Source: Rhizobiaceae bacterium
Lineage (GTDB): Bacteria; Pseudomonadota; Alphaproteobacteria; Rhizobiales; Rhizobiaceae
Reading direction: 5' to 3'
NCBI GenBank assembly: GCA_020628035.1
Contig: JAHDFS010000005.1
Coordinates: 1 to 33,062 of the forward strand
Length of the DNA: 33,062 nt
Part shown: positions 9,230 through 11,139 of the stretch, one piece after another
Layout: every line of letters begins with the position of its first letter
Numbering within the stretch: the first letter of the stretch is position 1
The notes under the pieces: generated by a model
What the model saw: the letters and a program-made list of their open reading frames with translations, nothing else
What the model was told of the DNA's origin: nothing
Database searches by the model: none
Made by a program: the position numbers and the translations under genes

Positions 9230-9733
9230 GGTTCCTCCCACTTCAGCCACATAAGCAAATATGCCCAAAGGCGGCAAGTCAAAGGGGGAAAAATCTTATC
9301 GATATTCGCGAAAGACTTGGCGGTGAAGAAGGATTAATCCATCGGCTCAAATATTATGAGGCAGACGTGATTCATGTATTTGACTATCTGATCAATAAAG
9401 TTTTTTGAAACAGATTTTCGCCACATTTTCTAACCTGAACAGCGAGATTGATCACAAATCAGCCAAAAACCTGCGACAATAAACCTGATTTTTTCACTCA
9501 AAAAAATTTTTTTTCAGCTAATTTTTGACCCTAATTACGGTGCTGTTCACGTATCTGTTTTTTGACGCTTTTGCCTAATATTTGGTTTTAAACGCTTTTT
9601 TCTTTTCTATGTATTCAAAATGTCATTTCAAGACACCAAACGCGAAAATCTGTTCACATTTTTGTGCACTGGATTTGTGTTTGCAAAGCTCAGAATCGAG
9701 CCTATATTCCACTCATCGAAACGCTAAACGGCA

Positions 9734-9766
9734 CTCTGAACATTCGGCCACAAACCTTGATCAGAG
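9734..9766 (+). other. Predicted stem-loop with CCACAAA in loop (element 1)
   Basis: CTCTGA-acattcggCCACAAAccttga-TCAGAG. Confidence 0.4.
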
Positions 9767-9798
9767 ACTTCGATAAAACAAACTAAATGAAACATTAC

Positions 9799-9823
9799 GG
9801 TGCGCCACAAATTAAAATGCACC
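9799..9823 (+). promoter_or_regulatory. Predicted stem-loop with CCACAAAT in loop (element 2), 5' UTR of the EF-hand gene
   Basis: GGTGC-gCCACAAATtaaaat-GCACC, 20 nt upstream of the ATG at 9844. Confidence 0.5.
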
Positions 9824-9843
9824 ACACTAAAAGGACTAAAATT

Positions 9844-10095
9844 ATGAAAACTCTTATTGCTCTTGCTACTGTATCTTTGATGGCTGTTTCTGGTGCGTCT
9901 GCACTATCTTTCGGTCAAGTTGACGCAGCTGTTGGTCAAAGCGACGAAATCTCAAGCGTATATGCTGGTGACGGTTTCGTTTCTTACGACGAACTACGTG
10001 GTAAAACAGGTGCCTACGATCGCGCAGCATTCGACGCTGCTGACGCTGATGGTAACGGTAAATTGACACCAACAGAATTCAAAAACCTTGGATAA
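9844..10095 (+). CDS. Small exported EF-hand protein
   Basis: MKTLIALATVSLMAVSGASA signal peptide; EF-hand loop DADGNGKLTPTEF; start at 9844 preceded by AAAAGGA. Confidence 0.85.
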   Translation: MKTLIALATVSLMAVSGASALSFGQVDAAVGQSDEISSVYAGDGFVSYDELRGKTGAYDRAAFDAADADGNGKLTPTEFKNLG

Positions 10096-10109
10096 TTATC
10101 TGTTGAATT

Positions 10110-10134
10110 CCTAAAGACCTTCATGGTCTTTAGG
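10110..10134 (+). terminator. Possible terminator hairpin
   Basis: CCTAAAGACC-ttcat-GGTCTTTAGG, perfect 10-bp stem 15 nt after the stop; no T-tract, so may be an mRNA 3'-end/stability hairpin. Confidence 0.45.
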
Positions 10135-10179
10135 GATCATTGATTAGGTATTGATCCACTTAATCGTTTGACGTTGGGA

Positions 10180-10298
10180 GCCTGTACAGAAATGTGCAGG
10201 CTTCGCGCCTTCATGGCCGCGTAACCAAGGTTTTGCTTAAAGTTTTGTAAAAAGCTTTGCGCATAAAAAAAGAGAGACGCCACAAACATCTCTCTTTT
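10180..10298 (+). ncRNA. Candidate small structured RNA or 3'-UTR structure
   Basis: Hairpin GCCTGTACA-GAAA-TGTGCAGGC (9 bp with one G-U, GNRA loop) at 10180-10201 and terminator-like AAAAGAGAGA-cgCCACAAAca-TCTCTCTTTT at 10268-10298; no convincing ORF. Confidence 0.3.
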
Positions 10299-10307
10299 AA
10301 CACGTAC

Positions 10308-10329
10308 CGGAATGCCACAAATCATTCCG
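10308..10329 (+). promoter_or_regulatory. Predicted stem-loop with CCACAAAT loop (element 4)
   Basis: CGGAATG-CCACAAAT-CATTCCG immediately upstream of AAAAGG / ATG at 10349. Confidence 0.5.
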
Positions 10330-10348
10330 AAAACCTAAAAGGCTCATT

Positions 10349-10444
10349 ATGAAACATGTACAAGAACCAAATAATGGTATTTTTACGGCTTTGTCAATGT
10401 CAGAAATGACTTACTCCACCAAATGGTGCGACAATGTTGCATAA
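10349..10444 (+). CDS. Possible 31-aa short ORF
   Basis: MKHVQEPNNGIFTALSMSEMTYSTKWCDNVA*; RBS AAAAGG at spacing 7; shares ATGAAACATGTAC start with the gene at 10761. Below the ORF-track length cut-off. Confidence 0.35.
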   Translation: MKHVQEPNNGIFTALSMSEMTYSTKWCDNVA

Positions 10445-10703
10445 TCACATCACCTGATAGTTTTACTGAGCTACTGGAAAAGGGTTTTTGGGATCACCAA
10501 ATAGGATATGTAACCGCGTATTATCTAATCAGACCACAAGCATTTTAGATATACGCAAGAAAGTAATTCTCTCGTTTAATACACGCAACCTCACGCGTTT
10601 GTGCGTAAGTGTTAATTTTAAATGAGTGCGTAAAGTGTTAAATTATAGTTAATGCGATGCCCCACACACATTTTATGGCATCGAAAAGGCGTTATGAAAA
10701 CAA

Positions 10704-10742
10704 TCGTGCCACCCACAAATACCACAAATATTTAGGCACGCT
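10704..10742 (+). promoter_or_regulatory. Predicted stem-loop with two CCACAAAT copies in loop (element 5)
   Basis: CGTGCC-acCCACAAATaCCACAAATattta-GGCACG, followed by AGAAAGG and ATG at 10761. Confidence 0.5.
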
Positions 10743-10760
10743 CACAGAAAGGAATGAGTT

Positions 10761-11012
10761 ATGAAACATGTACTATCCATTCTTGCAATCACATTTCTAT
10801 CTATCAATGTTGCAAGTGCAGCGCTTAGTTCAACCGAAGCCAACTATTCAAGCGGTATCAGCCCACTGGCTATGACACCCAAAGGTTCTGCTTCAATTGA
10901 CAAAGATCCTGTTCTAACAGGCCCGAACTTCATGGAATCACGACTTTACATCAACGATATCAATCCAGAGATTGGTCTCATCCCATCTGAGATGATGAAG
11001 TCTGCGGTTTAA
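10761..11012 (+). CDS. Small exported protein of unknown function
   Basis: MKHVLSILAITFLSINVASA signal peptide, 83 aa, RBS AAAGGAA, terminator after stop. Confidence 0.7.
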   Translation: MKHVLSILAITFLSINVASAALSSTEANYSSGISPLAMTPKGSASIDKDPVLTGPNFMESRLYINDINPEIGLIPSEMMKSAV

Positions 11013-11055
11013 CCCTAGGCATAGCCAAAGGGTACCTTTCATGGTCGCACCATCA

Positions 11056-11095
11056 CCCCGCTTTCGATTTATCGTTGGCGGGGTTTTGTTATTTT
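11056..11095 (+). terminator. Rho-independent terminator
   Basis: CCCCGC-tttcgatttatcgttg-GCGGGGTTTTGTTATTTT after the stop at 11012. Confidence 0.75.
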
Positions 11096-11139
11096 GATCC
11101 CTAGTTTTGGGTTGTCGGCAAAAATAAAATGAAAAATGG

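Follow-up and report, generated by a model that had tools for sequence, protein, structure and literature searches.

The window, the whole stretch of 33,062 nucleotides analysed here (contig C42 of genome G000), belongs to a genus filed under Rhizobiaceae. It contains a locus of three small plus-strand units, in each of which an open reading frame is preceded by stem-loops. The features, with their coordinates in the window, are the following.

9680..9708, plus strand: sigma-70-like promoter, TTTGCA-17-TATATT, upstream of unit 1 (consensus match only)
9715..9774, plus strand: predicted 5'-terminal hairpin of unit 1, with outer stem ATCGAA/TTCGAT
9734-9739/9761-9766, plus strand: inner stem of the 5'-terminal hairpin, CTCTGA/TCAGAG, with CCACAAA at 9748-9754 in the apical region
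9799..9823, plus strand: hairpin 2 of unit 1, GGTGCG-CCACAAA-TTAAAA-TGCACC, loop motif at -39 from the start codon
9829..9834, plus strand: Shine-Dalgarno-like AAAAGG of unit 1, predicted unpaired
9844..10095, plus strand: exported 83-aa EF-hand protein with a signal-peptide-like N terminus (Pfam EF-hand_5, E=2.7e-9)
10268..10298, plus strand: first hairpin of unit 2, AAAAGAGAGA-CGCCACAAACA-TCTCTCTTTT
10308..10329, plus strand: second hairpin of unit 2, CGGAATG-CCACAAAT-CATTCCG, loop motif at -34 from the start codon
10349..10444, plus strand: 31-aa ORF with AAAAGG at 10337-10342; its start is conserved, its C terminus is not
10655..10683, plus strand: additional hairpin, CGATGCC-CCACACACATTTTAT-GGCATCG
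10705..10740, plus strand: hairpin CGTGCC...GGCACG with two copies of CCACAAA (10713-10719 and 10722-10728)
10761..11012, plus strand: exported 83-aa protein of no known family, with orthologues only in G001 and G002

Each of the four genomes of the genus (G000 to G003) encodes paralogues of the EF-hand protein; outside the genus, no convincing relatives of it were found. In G003, an EF-hand gene and its CCACAA leader occur as near-identical copies 2.1 Mb apart (contig C1, 272751 and 2397909; L007 and L011), which points to a unit that is mobile or was duplicated recently.

An earlier note, made from the sequence alone, had described a family of five hairpins here with unrelated stems and a shared loop. 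Its six CCACAAA copies lie where it placed them, four of them running on to CCACAAAT, and the succession of hairpin, (A)AAAGG and TTATGAAA is indeed found at three hairpins. All five stems are present, with the last one spanning 10705-10740 instead of 10704-10742. The hairpin at 10655-10683 and the outer stem of the promoter-proximal hairpin had escaped that note. The latter, AUCGAA (9715)...UUCGAU (9774), lengthens the hairpin and, being located just downstream of the predicted promoter, places it at the predicted 5' end of the mRNA. Outer stem and loop motif are kept in G001, G002 and the paralogues of G000, while the inner arms differ. The TATATT...CTCATCGAAACG segment is found again upstream of paralogues. 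Within the genus, CTCATCGAAACG (9712-9723) is almost confined to the points at which these leaders are predicted to begin and is a possible start-site or regulator signature.

In unit 2, the top of the first hairpin reads ATG/CAT in G001 in place of ACG/CAT, which yields a perfect 12-bp stem; the second hairpin has the same sequence in G001 and G002. The segment 10268-10365, comprising the two hairpins, the Shine-Dalgarno (SD) sequence and ATGAAACATGTA, is nearly invariant in three species, and the 31-aa ORF behind it varies. The hairpins of unit 2 may matter independently of this ORF, as a sponge or as part of a decayed gene. A possible extra hairpin, TATCTAA...TTAGATA (10522-10551), carries CCACAAG in a 16-nt loop; its counterpart in G001 is ATCTAAAT...GTTTAGAT with CCACAAA, and it is absent from G002. 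In unit 3, the loop of the 10655-10683 hairpin reads CCACACA in the window and contains CCACAAA in the sister species G001 and G002. The second CCACAAA of the 10705-10740 hairpin is enclosed by an inner stem, AAATA/TATTT, extended to GAAATA/TATTTC in G001. After the 10655-10683 hairpin comes a 13-aa ORF (MKTIVPPTNTTNI, 10694-10735) with AAAAGG and TTATGAAA. Attenuation by a leader peptide was considered and rejected: neither this ORF, whose frame and length differ in G001 and G002, nor the 31-aa ORF is conserved in length or codons. Unit 1 folds with a z-score of -2.7 and unit 2 with one of -4.9; for unit 3 of the window the value is only -0.7, no better than its shuffles.

All six copies of CCACAAA (9748-10728, plus strand) are in predicted apical loops, and the minus strand of the 1.06-kb locus has none. 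Dinucleotide shuffles of the locus (n=2000) contain 0.15 copies on average and 2 at most. Across the whole window, both strands together hold 17 copies versus 6.4 +/- 2.7 expected. Hairpins are likewise in excess: four CCACAAA hairpins are strong, that is, score at least 14, versus a shuffle mean of 0.005 and a maximum of 1. When the motif is kept in place and only the flanks are shuffled, the observed summed stem score is reached in 0/2000 trials. Stems at the other CCACAAA sites of the window are weaker than those in the locus (Mann-Whitney p = 0.025). Shuffled sequence, named beforehand as a possible refutation, does not reproduce the set of CCACAAA hairpins, and a chance origin of the motif set of the locus is ruled out in the window.

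The pattern extends over the genus. Eighteen leaders, each taken as the 160 nt upstream of a start codon, were examined from secreted EF-hand paralogues and their neighbours in the four genomes. CCACA[AC] is present on the sense strand of 18/18 (46 copies, among them some CCACAC located in flanks or 3' arms, such as the one at -22 in unit 1; a strict count is lower) and never on the antisense strand. CCACAA proper is found in 17 of them, the exception being the EF-c leader of G003 with CCACAC. Homologous loci deprived of loop and stems were another of the refutations foreseen; every homologous leader of the genus has kept both. The distance from the last main loop to the start codon is 34-48 nt, the usual values being 34, 36 and 39. 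The -39 position is shared by most EF-hand leaders and the unrelated genes of the 10761 type; -34 is that of the 10349-type ORFs, -36 that of EF-a and EF-b in G003, and a few leaders have -43 to -48. In EF-a of G001, the hairpin ends 20 nt before the start. The leaders may have a common ancestor, so that inheritance could explain part of this positional constancy, and the genomes with the element are only four, three of them close and two incomplete MAGs. Within a single loop, CGGTGC-N-CCACAAA is invariant in eight EF-hand leaders, whereas the remainder of that loop differs between them in both length and sequence. The predicted unpaired probability is 0.53-0.95 for the SD and mostly 0.8-1.0 for CCACAA. 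Folding energy does not settle the strand of the element, the antisense folding better than the sense because the leaders are A-rich.

One leader of G003, the most distant species, consists of four tandem perfect hairpins, each with CCACAA as its exact hexaloop, on different, compensating stems (TGAGACG/CGTCTTA, GAGATG/CATCTC, GAGACA/TGTCTC and GGAACG/CGTTCC), and folds with a z-score of -7.4. In a set of nine short-loop hairpins, paralogues included, 89% of the cells are paired, a share that drops to 30-53% once the partner is slid; the covariation score is 0.58, versus 0.33 +/- 0.06 after shuffling. Two-sided changes affect 5/7 pairs, a number which, taken alone, shows no excess over shuffles (127 of 500). 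In the MAFFT alignment of the leaders, the 3' arms are misaligned, owing to the variable loop lengths. Compensatory stem changes around a conserved loop bear out the earlier suggestion of a structured RNA; the leaders show the conserved unpaired loop on compensating stems that is expected of a novel cis-regulatory RNA.

The element is restricted to these leaders. No noncoding hairpin-loop hexamer is more enriched than CCACAA in 2.395 Mb of G003 (8 versus 0.32 expected), and all eight sit in these leaders; near-identical gene copies account for several of them, which leaves four independent stems, and two of the three strict-hexaloop leaders of G003 are near-identical copies. A covariance model gives strong matches in the genus genomes only in these leaders. 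Among 396 genomes of the family, it detects no convincing copy outside the genus: 10/392 genomes have one match each (E <= 0.01), with about 4 expected, and these matches are weak, none is tandem and several are clearly inside coding sequence. The wider alphaproteobacterial spread anticipated at the outset is thus not seen; among the 396 family genomes, the element is confined to the genus. The accompanying remark that no described element has a CCACAAA loop agrees with Rfam 15 (4227 families, mini-ykkC included), a scan of which gave no match in the window and matches in the locus at chance level only; a literature search also found nothing on a CCACAA(A)-loop element. At L031 (G000, contig C106, 32458-32495), a hairpin CAAACG-CCACAAAT-CGTTTG is followed by AGGGAG-CCACAAATG, where an unrelated membrane-protein-like gene begins; it may be a chance occurrence or a further target.

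Known systems offer partial likenesses. ANTAR-target RNAs, the dual hexaloop hairpins of NasR/AmiR/EutV, similarly have tandem small stem-loops in a 5' leader, with free stems and conserved loop residues. The exact hexaloops and short linkers (about 10-20 nt) of the four-hairpin G003 leader come close to this layout; loops in the window measure 7-24 nt. The ANTAR-target hexaloop carries A at position 1 and G at position 4 (PMC3369931, PMC8164766). In contrast, all hexaloops here have C1 and C4. A terminator overlapping the second hairpin, a feature of ANTAR targets, was found in none of these leaders. There is one ANTAR gene per genome: in G000, one that we take to be NasT, followed by a NasS-like protein; in G003, a presumably AmiR-like gene after an AmiC-like protein. 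These names come from reading the sequences and from the ANTAR match, not from a family search. An ANTAR partner was rejected, the loop residues being wrong and the genus having no shared ANTAR orthologue. CsrA/RsmE sites present a short motif in loops on arbitrary stems, several per leader and near the SD, much as here, and the motif that CsrA recognises is GGA, located at the SD or close to it. The present loops differ in lying some 20 nt 5' of the SD and in containing no G. A CsrA/RsmE-bound leader, which would have GGA in a hairpin loop that overlaps the SD, is not what is found, as G is absent from every CCACAA loop and the SD is predicted to be unpaired.

A fixed loop on stems that only need to pair, in tandem copies of which the last is near an accessible SD, is the anatomy expected of a target for a loop-reading trans factor. 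The motif, its pairing and compensatory changes, the sense-strand bias, the fixed position and the restriction to leaders were established computationally. We lean, with moderate confidence, towards a cis-acting RNA of the leaders, specific to this lineage, with loops to which a trans factor, probably a protein, would bind to set translation and/or mRNA stability. Three messages for small exported proteins, the first presumably transcribed from the predicted 9680-9708 promoter, would each open with a leader made up of at least two stem-loops. Stem sequence would be free and the loop fixed as CCACAA(A), with the last loop some 34-48 nt before the start and an open SD in between. A putative trans factor, most likely an RNA-binding protein, would read the loop on its stem, the tandem copies raising affinity. 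Its binding would set translation initiation and/or mRNA lifetime, in whichever direction, for the whole gene set together. Neither the ANTAR genes nor the sRNA search described below supplied a partner.

The partner could instead be a trans-encoded sRNA with UUGUGG/AUUUGUGG, base-pairing to one or more loops upstream of the ribosome site. The loop would suit it, being an accessible stretch of 6-8 nt fixed upstream of the SD and pared down in G003 to exactly CCACAA; yet one seed match per message is usually enough for an sRNA, and the leaders have 2-5 copies. The earlier note had proposed looking for such an sRNA. A search for UUGUGG with a terminator, covering 61% of the G003 genome, yielded nothing convincing: of 92 noncoding UUGUGG sites, one adjoins a terminator-like stem. 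The candidate at position 965788 (minus strand) of contig C1 is weak and was discarded, its TTGTGG lying within the stem-loop of the terminator itself. Elsewhere, CCACAA in tandem spacing is no more frequent than in controls, and most of the cases checked fall within long open frames. As for pairing in cis within the predicted transcript, 9701-11100 contains no UUGUGG. We regard the sRNA as unlikely; multivalency and the absence of an sRNA candidate make us prefer a protein. A slightly less likely explanation is that the hairpins are passive stabilisers or insulators, a 5'-terminal stem blocking RNase E/RppH, with the loop partnerless and kept by recent descent. The first hairpin does begin where the message is predicted to start, like the stem-loops of ompA-like stabilisers, the stems are strong and some gene copies are recent duplicates. 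However, stabilisers of that kind require neither a conserved loop sequence nor tandem copies near the start. Moreover, the stems have diverged with compensation and the loop has not, and CCACAAA stays fixed among varying neighbours within one loop. Pure descent would preserve the stems too, whereas pure stabilisation would not preserve the loop sequence.

Two further explanations appear very improbable. The leader might bind a ligand in riboswitch fashion, through tandem conserved-loop hairpins before the start codon; there is a general resemblance to guanidine-II (mini-ykkC), which places two small conserved-loop hairpins before its gene. Yet the loop of guanidine-II is ACGR, and CCACAA, devoid of self-complementarity, cannot engage in its loop-loop kissing. 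The predicted folds leave the SD accessible, copy number (2-5) and spacing vary strongly, and Rfam provides no match. No more credible is an element acting as DNA (a binding site, or a REP-like or transposase-recognised hairpin). DNA elements may consist of tandem palindromic units and the paralogous loci have moved within the genome, but the strand is always the same relative to the gene (46:0), the position is always just before the start codon and the remaining noncoding DNA in the 2.395 Mb of G003 is free of the element. Unrelated stems around a fixed central hexamer are also unlike a dimeric DNA site, in which the arms are conserved.

Returning to the reading of the leaders by a trans factor, we advance more tentatively, at somewhat less than even confidence, the proposal that the tandem CCACAA hairpins are the code of a new RNA-binding regulator (or a dedicated sRNA) that coordinates the EF-hand and companion exported proteins specific to this genus. 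To our knowledge, bacterial RNA-binding regulators that recognise a fixed loop on stems of free sequence are few. The hairpins add a class of structured leader that is not in Rfam, and a new loop code, locked to the start codon and attached to one set of exported proteins, offers a compact and testable handle on a possible new regulator.
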